Positions 12,726 to 32,847 of a stretch of DNA of 33,106 nt are shown in pieces. This stretch comes from a virus: IMG/VR virus record IMGVR_UViG_3300043449_000019, positions 1 to 33,106 of that record. One strand, written 5' to 3'. Numbering within the stretch: the stretch's first letter is position 1; each line of letters starts with the position of its first letter. The position numbers and the translations under genes are program-made. Under the pieces are notes generated by a model. The model saw nothing but the letters and a program-made list of their open reading frames with translations. It was not told the origin of the DNA and did not search any database.

Positions 12726-13469
12726 TCAGCCTCCAATTTTTTTGATTAAATATCCGTCCATTGGAGGATATGAATATTTGCCATGCGACCAACCATGAAA
12801 TCTGTTTTGAATAGATTTTACGTTATGCGCCTTAGCCGCTTCACGCAAAGTTCCAAAATTTCCTAAAGGCGTAACGTAAATTGCCCTTGGCTTCATCACT
12901 TTTGTTTTGCCAATTTGCGCTAACGAGATTTTTTCTCTAGTAGCATCTGATAAAGGTTTACGAGGCTGCTTGTTTTTAGTTGTTGCTCTATTTGCAGCAG
13001 AGACAGATGCAACGTGTTCTGCGCTTTTAGGCTTACCCTTTAAACCATTGGAAATTGCTTGCTTGTGAGTAGCACTAAGTGCAATGCCTTTTTTGGCCTT
13101 GCCGCCCGCACTAACGCCTTGCAAAGATGCTGAAATTTTTGCTTTAGTTTGTGCGCTTCTTTGTTTTCCAAACAAGGGGTGCTTGCTACCCTTTAAGCCA
13201 TTTCCACCATCGCCACCTTCCGTAAGATTGACAAGTGGATAAAATTTTTTCAATGCTGCAATTGCTAATTTTTCTGCATTGAGTGCTTGTTTATGACTTA
13301 AACCAGATGCAATAATGATTGATTCATAGCCAGCTTTAGCAACGATGTTTTGCCAATGTGGATTGCGATCTTTTTTTGATGTTGCTCGGTTTCCTGAACC
13401 TTTACCAACATAAAAAAGTTGTCCGGTGTCCAATCTTTTGTGAACATAGACATATGCGTTTACAGCCAT
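12726..13469 (-). CDS. GIY-YIG homing endonuclease with NUMOD3 repeats (HEG1)
   Basis: The ATG at 13469 follows GGGGA; 247 residues. Residues 5-24 hold the GIY-YIG core: AYVYVHKR and FYVGKG. Further active-site residues are Arg near RATSKK, Glu in NAEKLAI and Asn in LVNLTEGGDGG. A Gly/Ser/Lys-rich middle (about 95-190) has several NUMOD3-type DNA-binding repeats (HPLFGKQRSAQTKAKIS; GKPKSAEHVASVS; PLSDATREKISLAQIGK). The end has a helix-turn-helix-like YVTPLGNFGTLREAAKAHNV. No intron surrounds it, so it is free-standing. It sits between two fibre genes; its final codons supply the GGAGG of the BppU-like gene. Confidence 0.9.
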   Translation of the reverse strand: MAVNAYVYVHKRLDTGQLFYVGKGSGNRATSKKDRNPHWQNIVAKAGYESIIIASGLSHKQALNAEKLAIAALKKFYPLVNLTEGGDGGNGLKGSKHPLFGKQRSAQTKAKISASLQGVSAGGKAKKGIALSATHKQAISNGLKGKPKSAEHVASVSAANRATTKNKQPRKPLSDATREKISLAQIGKTKVMKPRAIYVTPLGNFGTLREAAKAHNVKSIQNRFHGWSHGKYSYPPMDGYLIKKIGG

Positions 13470-13555
13470 TTGGTTCCCCAAGTCTCGGGTGGTGACGCTC
13501 CCTATGTACTCACAGGGCTACGGATGCTGTCTTGTAATGCCTAAATTATGCCTTA
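13470..13555 (-). promoter_or_regulatory. Hairpin leader of the HEG1 gene
   Basis: On the transcribed RNA a 7-bp hairpin (13517-13500, CCCUGUG and CAUAGGG, one G-U pair, AGUA loop) is followed by CCCGA/UUGGG (13489-13477), which masks part of the GGGGA ribosome-binding site of the endonuclease. A direct repeat, AGGCATAA/AGGCATTA, lies at its 5' end. Sequestered sites are known to keep phage-T4 homing endonucleases such as I-TevI poorly translated, so a similar brake is plausible here. Confidence 0.5.
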
Positions 13556-25166: not shown

Positions 25167-25838
25167 TCACATTATTAGGGGTTTATACGGGCGAAGAAGA
25201 ACCTGTGCGCTGTATGGAATGGGCTTGAGCTTTGTCTCTGTCGAGTTTGCACGGTTGTTGTACAAGTCGGTCAAGATCAGCAGCGCAGCCTGCTTAATGA
25301 CAGGATACGAACTCAAAGGATTCGCCACAGCCGTGTATTCCACGATGATGGGCGCAGTCATGGACGTATTGATGTTTGTTGGCAGACTCGCAACAATCAC
25401 CTTGTTGCCGCTGGCATCGTAGTAATACTGGTTTGAAGGCACAAGCGTCAAAACAGACGGGGTGCTGTCATTCCAATATGCCACTTTGCCAATGGTCACA
25501 CCAGCCTGCGTTGGCGACTGATTCTGGCTCACTTCTGGCAAGTCCAAAGAGACTGGCGAAGCAGCCAAACTCTCAGGACCATACCAGACCCGATACGAGG
25601 TCGGGAAGATGGACATGCCAAGGAAATCCTCAACATGCATCCGTGTTGCCACTTCCAAGTTGTTCAGATAGCCGTCTTGGCTCTCGTCATCAAACAAGTT
25701 CAGGTGGTCAGTGATTTCGGAGGTCGTAATCCAATTGGTAACTACGTCACGGCTGATTTGCTCAACCTTGACATAGTTAAAAGGATTGCGCGTTTGAGCG
25801 CCAAACGGCAATCCAGAAAGAGCTTCGTTGGAAGACAT
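25167..25838 (-). CDS. Head-tail connector (gp6/phiE125 gp8-like)
   Basis: A 223-residue protein; the ATG at 25838 follows AAAGGCGTAAAAG. Helical part: WITTSEITDHLNLFDDESQDGYLNNLEVATRMHVEDFLGMSIFPTSY, the signature of gp6-type connectors that sit below the portal ring. The middle is beta, and the end (PVIKQAALLILTDLYNNR) is the closing helix of the phiE125 gp8 group. It follows the second capsid gene after a short gap. Larger than HK97 gp6 (about 110 residues), with the added beta domain. Confidence 0.75.
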   Translation of the reverse strand: MSSNEALSGLPFGAQTRNPFNYVKVEQISRDVVTNWITTSEITDHLNLFDDESQDGYLNNLEVATRMHVEDFLGMSIFPTSYRVWYGPESLAASPVSLDLPEVSQNQSPTQAGVTIGKVAYWNDSTPSVLTLVPSNQYYYDASGNKVIVASLPTNINTSMTAPIIVEYTAVANPLSSYPVIKQAALLILTDLYNNRANSTETKLKPIPYSAQVLLRPYKPLIM

Positions 25839-25850
25839 CTTTTACGCCTT

Positions 25851-26864
25851 TCAGGCACTCATCCGAGCGCCAGCAAACGGGTCGCGCACAGTGCTGACCA
25901 CTCGTTTCTCAGCATACAGTGTAACGAAGCCGGGCGTAGTTTGTTCCATCATTTGAATGGACATTTGCTCGGTATCGCCAATGGTCAAGAAACGGGGCCA
26001 GTTTGCCAGATAGATCGGGAAGGCGCTAGACAGGTATGGGTTTGGAATCACAGGGAAACCAAACATGCGGCCAACAGCAGCGCCGTCTTCATCGCCAATT
26101 TCCAAGAACAATGGCAGACCTTGCGTATCCTTCAGGTTACGCAGGCTTTGAATCATTGTGGGGCTGATGTGCCAAGCATTGCCGGGCAAAGACCAGTATT
26201 GCGATGGGAAGGCATTCACCACGCTAACGATGTTGGCGTAAGTCACACCACCACCAGTTTGAGCAACTGTCGCCAAAGTGTGCAAGCCATTAGTGATAGC
26301 CGTGCCAGAAGTGCCGTAAGCGGCAGTCGAGCCAGAAGTATACGAATCCAAGCCGCGCAAGCCAGAAGTTGCGCCAGTTGTGGTTGTCGTAGAACCTGCT
26401 TGGTCGTTGTTGATAGCCATAGAAGCAGCCTCTTGCTGGCTGAATTCCAAGGCAATATCTTCAACAATGGTAGCTTCAAGGCCGTTCACATCTGACAAGA
26501 CAGCTTCGCGGATTGGCAATTGAGCCGTCACAACACGCACTGGCAAGGACCAAACCGTGGTGTTGGTGTTTGGAGTACCAGTGTTGTCTTGAACTGGATA
26601 GCCCCAAGGGTTTGTTTGGTATGTTGCGTTACCAGTCTTGGCAACGAACTGAGCGTCAGAACCAGCAACTGGAATGACACGAGAACCCATACGGAATGGG
26701 TTGGCGTAACGCAAAGCTGCGAACGCATCATCGAACACTGCACGACCACCCACACCAGAACCAGAGCCAGTGATTGCAGAGGCTTCTTTCAGGTCGATGT
26801 TGACTGTGCCGCCTTCGGTAATGGCTTGCTTAATTCCAGAGAGGATTTTTTCAGTGATGGTCAT
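25851..26864 (-). CDS. Second major-capsid paralogue, without scaffold domain (MCP2)
   Basis: I chose ATG 26864, six bases after AAGGAG. The 337 residues share the full capsid fold with MCP1: residue 26 (KEASA) aligns with MCP1 residue 104, with about 19 of 31 identities in the first block, then NNDQ, SGLRGLD, FPxY, EKR and VRDPFAG at the end. It lacks the first 78 or so residues of MCP1 that form the coiled-coil delta/scaffold domain, so it begins about where MCP1 would be cut by the protease. It may mix into the shell or form special vertices (as T4 gp24 does beside gp23); it could also be a decorative shell protein. Confidence 0.85.
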   Translation of the reverse strand: MTITEKILSGIKQAITEGGTVNIDLKEASAITGSGSGVGGRAVFDDAFAALRYANPFRMGSRVIPVAGSDAQFVAKTGNATYQTNPWGYPVQDNTGTPNTNTTVWSLPVRVVTAQLPIREAVLSDVNGLEATIVEDIALEFSQQEAASMAINNDQAGSTTTTTGATSGLRGLDSYTSGSTAAYGTSGTAITNGLHTLATVAQTGGGVTYANIVSVVNAFPSQYWSLPGNAWHISPTMIQSLRNLKDTQGLPLFLEIGDEDGAAVGRMFGFPVIPNPYLSSAFPIYLANWPRFLTIGDTEQMSIQMMEQTTPGFVTLYAEKRVVSTVRDPFAGARMSA

Positions 26865-27403
26865 GACGACTCCTTGATTGATGATTTCTTTAGCGCCCAA
26901 TACGCCTTTAAAGATTCCGATCTTCTTGAATTTGATTCTATTGTATTTTTCATTCCAGAGCGACTTTTGTTCCCAGACGAAGCCCTGCCAATGTTCGCTT
27001 TATGAGATTCAGAAAGTGGTTTACCAAGAATTGTTTTCTTCCTTTTTTCCTTTGATGCTTCATTCAGCATAGGATTGACGAAATTCAATTTTTGAAAATT
27101 ACTTTTTTTATTTCTCCAGCTTTCCGATGGAATCCATCCAGAAGTTCCTTCGCCGCCATCAGTCATGTTGACTAATTCAACATTCATATCTCTAAAGCAT
27201 TGGATTAAAAACTTTTCATGTTCCAAAGCATCATGTTCGGTTTCCCATCTTGATAAGATTTCCGATTTAAAACCATGCTTCGCAACAACATTATTCCAAT
27301 GATTATTTCTTTTTGATTTGATGAGATGTCTTCGACCTTTTCCTTTCCCTACATAGAAAGGAATTCCATCATCCTGTCGAAAATGAATGTATGTGTAAAA
27401 CAT
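26861..27403 (-). CDS. GIY-YIG homing endonuclease between the capsid paralogues (HEG2)
   Basis: A 180-residue free-standing homing endonuclease. GIY-YIG core: FYTYIHF (residues 2-8) and FYVGKGKGRR (16-25); further HWNNVVAKHG, Glu in ALEHEKFLI, and ELVNMTDGGEGTSG with the active Asn. Then a short NUMOD3-like region (GKPLSESHKANIGRASSG; SRRSESLKAYWALKKS). Its DNA is more A/T-rich than the capsid genes on both sides, a sign of acquisition. The last codons carry AAGGAG for MCP2, and the stop overlaps its start (ATGA). The ATG directly follows the T run of a terminator. Confidence 0.9.
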   Translation of the reverse strand: MFYTYIHFRQDDGIPFYVGKGKGRRHLIKSKRNNHWNNVVAKHGFKSEILSRWETEHDALEHEKFLIQCFRDMNVELVNMTDGGEGTSGWIPSESWRNKKSNFQKLNFVNPMLNEASKEKRKKTILGKPLSESHKANIGRASSGNKSRSGMKNTIESNSRRSESLKAYWALKKSSIKESS

Positions 27404-27434
27404 AAAAAAAGGGAGAGGTTCCCCCCTCCCTTTT
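27404..27434 (-). terminator. Intrinsic terminator after MCP1, overlapping the HEG2 leader
   Basis: AAAAGGGAG (27434-27426) and CTCCCTTTT (27415-27407) form a 9-bp stem with a G-rich 10-base loop; seven U follow (27410-27404), then the HEG2 ATG. It comes five bases after the MCP1 stop codon. It should limit transcription into HEG2, MCP2 and the tail genes and also hide the only purine-rich candidate ribosome-binding site of HEG2. Confidence 0.8.
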
Positions 27435-27438
27435 AATT

Positions 27439-28785
27439 TTAGGTCGCTGTCCCGGTGGAGCGATAGCGAACGCCAGCGAAAGGATCGCGCACCGAAGTTG
27501 CCAAACGCTTCTCACCGAAGAAGGTGATGTAGCCGGGCAGGGTTTGGTCGTAGCGGCGCATGACCATGTTCAGGCGCGACACGATGGTGTGGAAGCGGCT
27601 CCAGTCAGCGAAATACATAGGGTACAGGCTGTTAGTGCCAGCAGTGCCAGTAGTGGACTGACTTGGGTTGTCCAAGTACTTGTTCACCACCACATCGAAG
27701 CCCAACAGGCGACCAACGATACCGTTGGTTTCCAGAGGCGACATGCGCTCAAACACTGGAGTGCCGTTGTCGTCCACCAAGCCACGGATTTGGGCCAGCA
27801 AAACAGGACTCACGACAAACTTTGCGCTTTCAGTCCAATACTGCTGTGGCAGTGCATAGATGAAATTCACAACGTCTTTGTAAGTGATGTTTGCAGCGCC
27901 GACAGTGTTGGCGTTGGAGGTGATTTGGTCATAGGTAGCCAAGCTGTGCAGGCCAGAGCTAGAGCCAGTACCGGACGAGCCGAACGCAGCAGTGGAGGTA
28001 GTGCCACCAGTGTAGGTGGAGTTAGCGCCAGCGTACTGGTCCAAACCACGCAGGCCATCAGCACCGCCAGTAGCAGTGTCAGAGCCAGTGCCAGTCTGGT
28101 CGTTGTTTTGGATCATCGACAGAGCTTCGTTTTGAGCGAATTCCATCAGCATGTCGTCAACCACGTTGGCTTCCAAGCCATCAATGTCGTCCAAAGCCGC
28201 AGTACGGATAGGGAACTGCACGTTGATGTCCTTCAACACCACTTGCCAGATGGAAGTGTTTTCAGTTGTAGGAGTGCCGTTGTTCTGGATGCCGTAGCCC
28301 CACTGTGCGCCAGCGTTGCCGGTCTTCACACGGAACTGGTAGCTCGAACCATCGGTGGCAACGGTACGAGACACGCCGCGCAGAGGGTTGCCCAGACGCA
28401 GAGCAGCAAACACGGGATCGTAAGCAGTACGACCACCCTTGCCATCACCGCCAGCGGTCAGAGCAGAGGCTTCTTTCATGTACGCTTCGGCTTGAGCTTC
28501 GTCAGCAAAGATTTGCAGTTCTTTCTGGAAGTTGGACTTGCCAGCAACAATTGCTTTCAGTTGCTCACGAACCGACTTGTTCACATCGCCGCGGACAGTC
28601 TTTTCAGGCTTGATGACAGCAGGAGCTTGCACGGAGGCAACTTTGGCTTCCAGAGCAGCAACCATTTCGCTGAATTCGGCCTTGACGGCTTCAACAGCAG
28701 CGGGAATTTTGGCCTCAACAGCCACAATGCTCTCAGCCTGTTTGGCTTCGATAGCATCCAGTTTTTCGATGATTTCTTTAGACAT
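27439..28785 (-). CDS. Major capsid protein with N-terminal scaffold domain (MCP1)
   Basis: A 448-residue HK97-fold capsid protein; the ATG follows AAAGGCTAATC. Residues 1-60 form an Ala/Glu/Lys coiled coil (the delta or scaffold domain) and residues 60-103 a linker likely removed by the prohead protease. From residue 104 (KEASALTAGGDG) comes the mature shell protein, with the N-arm, the E-loop zone around VKTGNAGAQWGYG, the spine helix (EANVVDDMLMEFAQNEALSMIQNNDQ), and the P-domain and A-domain strands to the closing VRDPFAG. The adjacent protease and terminator fit the highest-expressed head gene. Confidence 0.9.
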   Translation of the reverse strand: MSKEIIEKLDAIEAKQAESIVAVEAKIPAAVEAVKAEFSEMVAALEAKVASVQAPAVIKPEKTVRGDVNKSVREQLKAIVAGKSNFQKELQIFADEAQAEAYMKEASALTAGGDGKGGRTAYDPVFAALRLGNPLRGVSRTVATDGSSYQFRVKTGNAGAQWGYGIQNNGTPTTENTSIWQVVLKDINVQFPIRTAALDDIDGLEANVVDDMLMEFAQNEALSMIQNNDQTGTGSDTATGGADGLRGLDQYAGANSTYTGGTTSTAAFGSSGTGSSSGLHSLATYDQITSNANTVGAANITYKDVVNFIYALPQQYWTESAKFVVSPVLLAQIRGLVDDNGTPVFERMSPLETNGIVGRLLGFDVVVNKYLDNPSQSTTGTAGTNSLYPMYFADWSRFHTIVSRLNMVMRRYDQTLPGYITFFGEKRLATSVRDPFAGVRYRSTGTAT

Positions 28786-28787
28786 GA

Positions 28788-29588
28788 TTAGCCTTTCAAG
28801 CGTTTGTCTAGGAGTTTAAGAAGTTCGCGTTGCTCAAGAGCCACGAGAATTTCCGCTTCGGTTGCCTCCGCATCAGAATCACTCTGAGTTGGCGCAGTTT
28901 CAATAGGCTCTTTCACAGCATCACGCTGTTCAATCACCGACTTGAATACAGATGCGGCGGCAACCGACATCTGCTTGGACAGACCTGCATCCCGCAGGGC
29001 TTCTTCCAATACTTTGAGGTCAGCCGAACCATCCTCACGGAAGTATTCGAGCTTCTTGACCTCTGCTTTGGGGTTGTTTGGGTACATCACCACGCTGGTT
29101 TCACGCAGGCCACCTTTGGTGATCTGGAAATAGCCATCTTCGTAGTAATCGCCTGAACCAGCAGGAAATGGAGTGCCGTCTTCTTTGACCCACTGATATT
29201 CATCAGCGTATGCGCCAACAGACACGCCGCCAAACATGTTGGGCGACTCGCACATGACTTGATAGAGGTCAGAACCAGCAGAAGTGTTCAGGAACAACCG
29301 ACCTTTGGCGCTCATGCCTTCGTCATCCATTTCCAACTCTGTCCATTCCCCAACAGGCATGGAATCAGCATTGTGGTTCAGGAACATTGGCAAAGGACGA
29401 CCGGACTTAGCAAACTCATTTGCCCAATCCATAAAACCTTCTGGCTGGTAATTGAATTTGCGACCGTCAGCGCCTTCACGAGCGCCCCAAGTGGTAATGC
29501 GAGCTTCAATCTTGCCTGTCGGTTCGCCGTTTGCGGCCTTTTCGGACAGGTTCAGCTTTGCTTCGCAGATGAGATTCAGTTGCTTCAT
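28788..29588 (-). CDS. Prohead maturation protease (S78, HK97-type)
   Basis: A 266-residue protease of HK97 prohead type. The triad is visible: His72 in FLNHN, Ser123 in GGVSVG, and Glu163 in LRETSVV, spaced as in HK97 gp4 (65, 115, 147). The C-terminal 70 residues are charged and helical, probably a packing tail for the prohead. It would cut the scaffold domain of MCP1 and then itself. The ATG at 29588 follows AGGGGCAATCA. It stands between portal and capsid in the usual order. Confidence 0.9.
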   Translation of the reverse strand: MKQLNLICEAKLNLSEKAANGEPTGKIEARITTWGAREGADGRKFNYQPEGFMDWANEFAKSGRPLPMFLNHNADSMPVGEWTELEMDDEGMSAKGRLFLNTSAGSDLYQVMCESPNMFGGVSVGAYADEYQWVKEDGTPFPAGSGDYYEDGYFQITKGGLRETSVVMYPNNPKAEVKKLEYFREDGSADLKVLEEALRDAGLSKQMSVAAASVFKSVIEQRDAVKEPIETAPTQSDSDAEATEAEILVALEQRELLKLLDKRLKG

Positions 29589-29727: not shown

Positions 29728-31143
29728 TCAAGTCTTGGAACCGATGTTCATCTTCTTGGTTTGGCTACCGCCACCACCGCCAGTGTCTTGTGCGCTACTG
29801 CCCGGCACAGGTTCAGCCTTGGCATCAGGCGATGCAAGTTCATCGCCGCCTTCCATGCTGGACATGCCCATGTAGGCCCGTGCTTCGTTCGGGGTCATGA
29901 TGCCGCCCTTCACGCCAGCCGTAGCAAAGTTCATCTGGTCAAGCGGAGCGCCCTTCAGGAAATCCTTGGTATCAAACTCGATACACAGCGATGGATAGCC
30001 TGCCAGCAGATGTTGCTTCATCTTCTCCTGAGTGTTCACCAAAATCGGGTACATAGCCGACTTGTAGAACTCATCCATTGCGGTTTGGCTGTTGTTGAAC
30101 TTGCCATCATGGATGCCGATCATGGAAGGAGGAACACCAAACAGACCGCAGATGCGGCGCATGGTTTGCAACTTCAAAGCGGCAGCATCAGCGTCTTGCA
30201 AGGTCAGCATTTCCAGCTTCTGGTACTTCATGCCTTGGTCCAGCAGCATTCCCTGACCGGGCTTGCTTGGGTCGGACTGACGAGAGCCGACCATGTTGGA
30301 CCACGCCTCTTTCAGACGAGCAGCAATCTCTTTGTACTTGCCATCAGGCACAACTTGGTCGGTCACAAACATGCCAGAAGGCTTTGCGCCGTTTTGCATG
30401 ACGTAGTTGGCGTACAGGTCGATGTCCTGATCCAGTGCCACCAGTTCAGCAGCCAAGATGCCCTTGTTGAAACCAGCCGAACCCTGCCACGCCATTTCCT
30501 TAACGTGCATGACCTGATGAGCCTTCAACGGCTCGTCTTTGCTGAAGCCATAGGATGGGGTCGAAATGCGGTAGGACGGATAGCGAGTTGGCGTGATGGT
30601 CACGGCAATCAGGGTCGAGTCCAGAATGTACATTTCAAGCGGAGTCTCGGTCGAGCTATTCTGGTCTTTTCTCCACCACAGGGTAAAGGCTTCGCCAGCC
30701 AGTTCGTACCACATCAACCACTGGAACCAGAACTCGTATTTGCTCTGGAAGTTGTTGGGGTTGTTCAGCAGCTTGGCGACTTGCTTGGCCTTGGCCTTGT
30801 CACGAGCGCCAACAGACTTGTCCTTGACGGCATCCAGCATCTTGCCATCTTCATCTTCGTACTTGATGCAGATTGGCAGTTGAGCCAAAGCACGAGCCTT
30901 CAAGCCAATGCAGGACATCACGGTGCTGTTCCGTGTGAGCATCGACATGTCCACCGGACGACCAGCATTTGTCGTGCTGGAGGTGGTGACATACAAAATC
31001 TGGGTATTGACGTTCGGGCGCTGATTAGAGCCTTGGTAAATGACATTGTTACCCAATGCCGTCTGACCAAAGAGCGAATTGCTCTCATTTTGAGGCACTT
31101 GTGGGGCGTTGTTTTTACCCTTGAAAACGTCAAAAAGTCCCAT
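29728..31143 (-). CDS. Portal protein (HK97-type)
   Basis: A 471-residue portal (PF04860 type); the ATG at 31143 follows AGGAGTGAATC. Signature: MLTRNSTVMSCIGLKARALAQLPICI (clip/stem start), the QWLMWYELAGEAFTLWWR strand, LKAHQVMHVKEMAW, the long helix GFNKGILAAELVALDQDIDLYANYVMQNGAKPSGMF, and RRICGLFGVPPSMIGIHDGKFNNSQTAMDEFYKSAMYPIL. The C-terminus is flexible and Gly-rich. The portal is the 12-subunit ring through which TerL packs DNA. Confidence 0.9.
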   Translation of the reverse strand: MGLFDVFKGKNNAPQVPQNESNSLFGQTALGNNVIYQGSNQRPNVNTQILYVTTSSTTNAGRPVDMSMLTRNSTVMSCIGLKARALAQLPICIKYEDEDGKMLDAVKDKSVGARDKAKAKQVAKLLNNPNNFQSKYEFWFQWLMWYELAGEAFTLWWRKDQNSSTETPLEMYILDSTLIAVTITPTRYPSYRISTPSYGFSKDEPLKAHQVMHVKEMAWQGSAGFNKGILAAELVALDQDIDLYANYVMQNGAKPSGMFVTDQVVPDGKYKEIAARLKEAWSNMVGSRQSDPSKPGQGMLLDQGMKYQKLEMLTLQDADAAALKLQTMRRICGLFGVPPSMIGIHDGKFNNSQTAMDEFYKSAMYPILVNTQEKMKQHLLAGYPSLCIEFDTKDFLKGAPLDQMNFATAGVKGGIMTPNEARAYMGMSSMEGGDELASPDAKAEPVPGSSAQDTGGGGGSQTKKMNIGSKT

Positions 31144-31167: not shown

Positions 31168-32847
31168 TTACCACTCTAACGCCCTAAAGCCAAATGAATC
31201 GCTGACAAATACGTTATCCAAATGGCAGTGCAGAGCCATAATCATGGCAATAATGCCGTCAACCTTGGCGCTTGGGTCCGCTTCGTTCTTGCGAACCTTC
31301 ACGTTCCCGTTCACATCAATGTAAACCTCGCAGTTTCCAAGCTGCCAGCCCACAAAAGGATTGCCGTCATGCTTGATGGCCTTCTTCAAAATCAATTGCT
31401 CAGTGGTCTTGGATGGGTTCGACAGCACAGCCATGCCCTGACCCACCTTCTTTACAGGCAAACCTTCGGCATACAAGTTCGCCACCAGCGCCGCAGCGTT
31501 ATACGGGTCGTAGCCAATTTCCTTGACATCGAACTTCTCGCATTGCTGCTTGATGAACGACTCAATCTCGTTCAGGTCCGTCACGTTGCCCGGAGTCAGT
31601 CGCAAAATGCCAGTCCTGTGCGCTTCCATGTAAACCGACTTGTAGTGGTTTGGCACAAAGTCCAAGGATTCTTCCGGTAGAAAGAATTGGAACTGAGCAT
31701 AGAAATCTTCTTCGCCGTAACGGTGCAAAGTCACCACAGCATTCAAGTCTCGCGTGTGCGCCAAGTCAAAGCCAATGAACGTGGACTCAGGCTTGTCGGT
31801 CGGCAGCTTATCAACAGACTCATCCCAGAACCTGCGGTCAACCCACGCAGAATTGGCCGACACATAGATGTTCAACTGTTTACACAAGAACTCGTTCAAA
31901 GAAGCAGGCTTGGCAGCAGCTTCCTCGGCCATGTGCTGGATGTGTTCAGTCGTGACCGACACGCCAAGCATTGGGTTAGCCTTGCCCCAGACATCAGGGT
32001 TGCTCCACTCATCACCGGGGTCGATGCTGTACAGCAGGCCAAACCATCGGAAGTTATCAGGAGCCGCGCCACGCAACACCTGTCGGAAGTGCGACAAGTC
32101 TTCGTAGAACTTGGTTTCCTTGGTAAAGCTGGCAGTCGTCAAGTACATCCGCATCGGGTTCTTCCGTGCGCCCATACCCGAGTGCAACACCTCAATAGAC
32201 CCGCGCTCAGTAATCTGAGCCGCCTCATCAATCATGGCGCAGGATGGGTTTTTGCCGTCACCAGTCTTGCGGTTCTCGCGGGACAGCGCCTTGTAGGTGG
32301 ATGTCGAGTCGCCTGCCTTTTTCAGTTCGCCGCGGTAGGCAATGAACTTGGATGCCAACTCGGGCTTCATGCCTTCCACAATGGCCTTGGACGAATCAAA
32401 GCAAATTGATGCCTGTTCTCGATTGGTCGCCAGAGTGAAGACTTCAGCGCCAGCATCCCCAAACTGCAACTCGTACAGCGCAATGATGGATGCAATTGTG
32501 GTCTTGCCAGACTTGCGCGGCACAAACAAAATGATGTCTGTCACCCACCGGAATGAATGGTCGCGTCTGTCACGAAAGCCGTAGATCGCGGCCAAGTACA
32601 TGACCTGAAAGCCTTGCAACTCAATAGACTTGCCAGCCTCTGGACCTTTGACATGGCGGCAGAACTTGACGAACTTCAGGATGTGTTCGGCTTTGGCCGG
32701 GACAAATTCGTAGGGCGCATCCTTGCGCTCCACCATATCCAAGAACCGTTGGCAGGCAAGTTTCACATCCTCGCAAGCCTTGATGTCTCCCCGAACTACC
32801 CCAATGGCGTAAGCAAATGCAGGCTCAAGCAGTGGCGAATAGCTCAT
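31168..32847 (-). CDS. terL: Terminase large subunit
   Basis: A 559-residue ATPase-nuclease of the HK97 terminase-1 group. Walker A: PRKSGKTT (residues 110-117); Walker B: AMIDEA (204-209, Glu208 catalytic). C-terminal nuclease: Asp361 in FIGFDLAHTRD, Asp447 in EIGYDPYN and Asp530 in KVDGIIAM, three metal ligands of the RNase H fold. The start overlaps the end of the small subunit by 23 bases; no good ribosome-binding site precedes it, so coupling is likely. It drives DNA into the prohead and cuts the concatemer. Confidence 0.95.
   Translation of the reverse strand: MSYSPLLEPAFAYAIGVVRGDIKACEDVKLACQRFLDMVERKDAPYEFVPAKAEHILKFVKFCRHVKGPEAGKSIELQGFQVMYLAAIYGFRDRRDHSFRWVTDIILFVPRKSGKTTIASIIALYELQFGDAGAEVFTLATNREQASICFDSSKAIVEGMKPELASKFIAYRGELKKAGDSTSTYKALSRENRKTGDGKNPSCAMIDEAAQITERGSIEVLHSGMGARKNPMRMYLTTASFTKETKFYEDLSHFRQVLRGAAPDNFRWFGLLYSIDPGDEWSNPDVWGKANPMLGVSVTTEHIQHMAEEAAAKPASLNEFLCKQLNIYVSANSAWVDRRFWDESVDKLPTDKPESTFIGFDLAHTRDLNAVVTLHRYGEEDFYAQFQFFLPEESLDFVPNHYKSVYMEAHRTGILRLTPGNVTDLNEIESFIKQQCEKFDVKEIGYDPYNAAALVANLYAEGLPVKKVGQGMAVLSNPSKTTEQLILKKAIKHDGNPFVGWQLGNCEVYIDVNGNVKVRKNEADPSAKVDGIIAMIMALHCHLDNVFVSDSFGFRALEW

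Follow-up and report, generated by a model that had tools for sequence, protein, structure and literature searches.

We report that a family of small aquatic phages carries two adjacent genes for HK97-type major capsid proteins, MCP1 and MCP2, which descend from one old duplication and have been retained together under purifying selection. MCP1 has a fused N-terminal scaffold region that is absent from MCP2, as well as a consistently longer A-domain region. Judging from these sequence features, we somewhat favor a division of the shell into hexons and pentons, in which MCP2 would be a dedicated vertex subunit similar in role to gp24 of phage T4 but of independent origin.

The pair was analyzed in a 33,106-nucleotide stretch of viral DNA (the window), where the head genes lie on the minus strand and run from the terminase large subunit to the head-tail connector as follows:

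31168-32847, minus strand: terminase large subunit (phrog_9, E 8e-133)
29728-31143, minus strand: portal protein (PF04860, E 2e-60)
28788-29588, minus strand: S78 prohead protease (PF04586, E 1.5e-8)
27439-28785, minus strand: MCP1, 448 aa, major capsid protein with an N-terminal scaffold-like region, likely the hexon subunit (PF05065, E 5.7e-26; TIGR01554, 8-381/385)
28489-28785, minus strand: scaffold-like N-terminal region of MCP1, residues 1-99, without counterpart in MCP2 (TIGR01554 coverage; low-confidence model helices 2-50 and 64-80; length excess in every pair)
27404-27434, minus strand: terminator-like hairpin and T run 3′ of MCP1 (sequence folding)
26861-27403, minus strand: GIY-YIG homing endonuclease gene, 180 aa, between the hairpin and MCP2 (phrog_314, E 5e-15)
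26870-26875, minus strand: AAGGAG, ribosome-binding-site-like motif for MCP2, within the 3′ end of the endonuclease gene (sequence)
25851-26864, minus strand: MCP2, 337 aa, capsid paralogue without scaffold, likely the vertex (penton) subunit (PF05065, E 7.3e-24; TIGR01554, 127-378/385; retention in relatives)
26802-26864, minus strand: conserved N-terminal peptide of MCP2, residues 1-21, with a helix at 3-17 in the model (conservation, model)
25167-25838, minus strand: head-tail connector directly 3′ of MCP2 (phrog_40, E 6e-9)

An earlier, sequence-only reading of this DNA had placed both capsid open reading frames exactly where we find them, with a terminator between them, but had overlooked the GIY-YIG gene.

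On profile evidence, MCP1 and MCP2 are both HK97-type major capsid proteins. They have matches to PF05065, phrog_10 and TIGR01554 in common, with scores of 92 bits (PF05065) and 93 bits (TIGR01554) for MCP1 and of 85.1 and 74.9 bits, respectively, for MCP2, compared to curated cut-offs of 24.2 and 27.5. The two proteins are 42% identical across 343 aligned columns, and their shell parts are colinear, with K26 of MCP2 equivalent to K104 of MCP1 (an offset of 78 residues), in agreement with the equal block order described earlier. The motif VRDPFAG, which had been said to end both proteins, is present in each, but near the C-terminus rather than at it. Seven positions are fixed differently between the paralogues (e.g., L405 in MCP1 and E299 in MCP2). 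Structure models were poor (mean pLDDT 42 for MCP1 and 55 for MCP2), probably because the alignments contain close relatives only; the best fold matches of the MCP2 model are HK97-fold capsids (E 2e-6), but with a TM of only about 0.35-0.4. The Rhodobacter capsulatus gene transfer agent capsid (6tb9, 6tba) is the closest solved structure to both proteins by sequence profile and the top fold match of the MCP2 model, although the match is remote (about 19% identity) and only one capsid protein is known for that agent.

Searches of viral contigs with both capsid proteins, together with the window and the record of phage P19250A, gave 259 loci, some overlapping on one contig. Both genes are found in 245 of these; 13 loci with one gene end at a contig edge, and one has neither gene in the stretch kept. 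Because these searches used the capsid proteins themselves, the retention test was repeated with the portal protein, which returned 76 further loci (a few from contigs already found): 58 have both genes, and the remainder end before a full MCP2 could appear. MCP1 and MCP2 are side by side in all judgeable loci. The sequence-only reading had called for a search of related genomes for the same pair, and had regarded relatives with MCP1 only and a decayed MCP2 as the finding that would count against it; instead, all relatives that allow a judgement have kept MCP2. Broken frames were seen for MCP2 in one contig (L085, again as L325) and for MCP1 in L113, L324 and perhaps L278, and there is no sign of decay particular to MCP2. 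Contigs of relatives usually span 36-41 kb. The contig of one relative (L093 / L246) reaches 75,987 bases, about twice the usual size, and is possibly a doubled assembly. At 9049-11452 of L311, both strands show the capsid pair at identical coordinates, which is probably an artefact of palindromic assembly.

Among the relatives found, only Methylophilaceae phage P19250A (KX815270) is named, and it is also the sole match in the phage collection. It resembles the window in the pair itself (58-61% identical), in a similar spacing and in the hairpin. Its MCP1 is annotated as ‘gene transfer agent capsid protein’ and its MCP2 as ‘hypothetical protein’; the latter, P19250A_0006 (L150, 6066-7124), is a capsid paralogue. 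P19250A is a described isolate with the pair, its MCP2 unrecognised in the annotation. No other phage in the collection matched MCP1 or MCP2 better than E = 1e-3, and the two proteins are thus mutual nearest kin within it; bacterial genome contigs gave no match to MCP2.

In a tree taken from 52 pairs, MCP1 and MCP2 form two clades that never intermix and are separated by a single branch (support 98, length 1.56), which indicates one duplication older than the diversification of the sampled family. Branching order is not the same in the MCP1 and MCP2 halves of the tree, suggestive of exchange between lineages; Marinobacter phage AS1 has a very long branch and was for this reason an unreliable root. 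Purifying selection on MCP2 (median dN/dS 0.098) is strong, and as strong as that on MCP1 (0.106). A specific co-divergence of MCP1 with MCP2 was looked for and not found: their correlation (0.71) is no stronger than that of either protein with the portal or protease.

The clearest differences between the paralogues are in the N-terminal and A-domain regions. The TIGR01554 match runs over model positions 8-381 of 385 in MCP1 and only 127-378 in MCP2, and the scaffold part of MCP2 is therefore truly missing; together with the offset of 78, the later start of this match (127 vs. 8) bears out the earlier statement that MCP2 is without roughly the first 78 residues. MCP1 exceeds MCP2 at the N-terminus by 66-82 residues in every pair, and the fused-scaffold layout, with an N-terminal scaffold region before the shell domain, is found in MCP1 only. 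This region had been described as a coiled-coil scaffold domain: profile coverage supports a scaffold region, while its helical nature is weakly supported by the structure model (mean pLDDT 42), which places helices at 2-50 and 64-80. At its N-terminus, MCP2 has a conserved peptide of its own, about 20 residues long (MTITEKILSGIKQAITEGG), in which most members have the pattern I-L-x-G-I-K-x-A and which has no significant alignment to MCP1. Sliding profiles gave no significant support for a derivation of this peptide from the MCP1 scaffold, the best score (11.9, at MCP1 63-78) being below the 95% null (12.2). The description of MCP2 as ‘pre-matured’ is thus only half right: the scaffold is absent, but MCP2 is not simply a matured MCP1, because it has a conserved N-terminal peptide of its own.

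Within the shell domain, regions were delimited from the HK97 fold order, and boundaries are approximate, both structure models being poor. By this division, the spine and C-terminal regions show a length difference of 0 between MCP1 and MCP2 and the N-arm one of 0.4 on average, and the N-arm and spine are 52% identical between the paralogues of one genome. In every pair, the A-domain region is 17-37 residues longer in MCP1; within either paralogue taken alone, too, no other part of the shell domain varies as much.

All 153 distinct complete pairs have a hairpin after MCP1, in a gap whose sequence varies widely. These gap hairpins have a mean of -20.6 kcal/mol (weakest -14.6), compared to a mean of -11.2 for base-shuffled copies, and a simple pattern for a T-rich tail is matched in 140 of the 153; comparison foldings of 60 bases each gave means of -9.8 after the portal gene and -13.3 after MCP2. 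Little sequence remains between the hairpin and the MCP2 start for a promoter of its own, and MCP2 is therefore most likely expressed by read-through. It had been argued from the terminator that MCP2 is made in smaller amounts. The hairpin proved universal in the family, but the argument is weaker than stated, because a hairpin here would lower everything downstream (MCP2, connectors and tail) and because a strong hairpin (-19.7 kcal/mol) likewise stands immediately after the one annotated capsid gene of phage AS1 (L261, 5947-5999).

The endonuclease gene is an optional passenger, outside the capsid arrangement. In the window, the MCP2 start overlaps it by ATGA, while the gap between MCP1 and MCP2 measures 50-94 bases, without room for an endonuclease, in 149 of the 153 distinct pairs; the other four have a gap of 573-642 bases, each holding an endonuclease gene. 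Related GIY-YIG genes occur at the same site, between the hairpin and MCP2, in L022, L024 and L101, and at other sites in L198, L057 and L138.

We propose that an HK97-type capsid gene was duplicated once, long ago, into MCP1 and MCP2, which would now divide the shell. MCP1, the one with a fused scaffold region and the longer of the two in the A-domain region, would be made in large amounts and form the hexons, and MCP2, encoded behind a hairpin that would limit read-through, would be produced at lower dosage and form the pentons at the vertices. MCP2 could join the MCP1 lattice by the common N-arm, E-loop and P-domain surfaces and pack around the five-fold axis with its shorter A-domain, and scaffold guidance would be supplied by MCP1 only. 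Such a division, as in T4, fits the strict co-retention, the shared lattice regions, the shorter A-domain region, the lack of a scaffold and the place after the hairpin. The sequence-only reading had offered three roles for MCP2 (co-assembly at chosen positions as gp24 does at vertices, setting of shell size, or a cleavage-independent subunit), and the gp24-like vertex subunit is the best supported of these, by anatomy. Against a vertex role, the shell of a ~38 kb genome needs no separate vertex protein, the A-domain region also varies most within each paralogue, and the MCP1-MCP2 divergence correlation is not above that with the portal or protease.

There are other readings of the pair. MCP2 could be in the shell without being the sole vertex protein, mixed with MCP1 in hexons or at chosen lattice positions and tuning size or stability. 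The lattice-forming N-arm and spine are indeed the regions most alike, and nothing directly places MCP2 at five-fold sites; mixed hexamers, however, would be expected to favor equal A-domain lengths, against the constant excess in MCP1, and we consider this reading unlikely. The conservation of the entire MCP2 shell domain, together with the strict position of the gene within the head operon, after MCP1 and before the connector, argues against a function outside the mature shell (e.g., as an assembly factor or a decoy for capsid-sensing host defenses), which we consider improbable: nothing specific favors it beyond the point that a selected capsid-like protein need not be structural. A whole shell domain would also allow MCP2 to be an alternative capsid under some condition, or to replace MCP1 fully in some particles, but it is without a scaffold region of its own and behind a hairpin in every genome, and we hold this to be quite improbable. 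The endonuclease gene adjoining MCP2 in the window would fit a further reading, in which MCP2 is a duplicate that is redundant or in decay and perhaps persists through gene conversion or through the homing endonuclease next to it. This is extremely improbable and already contradicted by relatives: almost all pairs have no room for an endonuclease, the paralogues never intermix in the tree, dN/dS is about 0.1, and MCP2 has a broken frame in one contig, compared to two or three contigs for MCP1.

The vertex assignment invites comparison with known capsids. In T4, genes 23 and 24 are adjacent and downstream of the portal and protease. At the level of the genes alone, the likeness extends to adjacent paralogous capsid genes of which the second has a short N-terminal extension. 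However, the sequence families differ (PF05065 matched in Pfam scans, and T4-type capsid families did not), the scaffold of T4 is encoded by a gene of its own, T4 has a ~170 kb genome and a prolate head compared to a ~38 kb genome here, and gp23 and gp24 are about 20% identical vs. 42% for MCP1 and MCP2. MCP2 may work like gp24 by analogy, but it is not a member of the gp24 family. T4 gp24 forms 11 vertices and probably arose by duplication of gp23; it loses 10 residues by N-terminal cleavage vs. 65 for gp23, and some gp24-bypass mutations map to the A domain of gp23 (PMC9958956). MCP1 itself has the layout of HK97 gp5-type fused-scaffold capsids (TIGR01554 / PF05065), with the S78 protease gene directly upstream, but in HK97 and most gp5-type phages a single protein makes up both hexons and pentons, compared to two here.

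According to a 2026 review, ~40 kb phages build hexons and pentons from one protein, saving genome space, and a penton gene apart from the hexon gene is rare, T4 being the example given (PMC13185644). Our literature searches on two capsid genes, paralogous capsid proteins and dedicated vertex proteins returned nothing on this phage family, virion protein and structure data included. Here, the capsid pair is a constant trait of a widespread family of small aquatic phages, while such a division of labor is best known from the much larger T4. We see an even balance for and against the broader proposal that this ~38 kb HK97-type family independently evolved a penton subunit through duplication and scaffold loss, with the scaffold on the hexon protein only and pentons added without one. 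If true, the second capsid gene would be an independent case of a separate penton gene, and would offer a direct route to asking how pentons are placed when the scaffold sits on hexon subunits only.

Elsewhere in the window, a second GIY-YIG-like open reading frame (12726-13481) resembles the first (70 bits) and has a weak match, below cut-off, to TIGR01453 (group I intron endonucleases). Positions 2562-2628, on the minus strand, match the Rfam int-alpA RNA with 37.5 bits, compared to a gathering score of 35.8.
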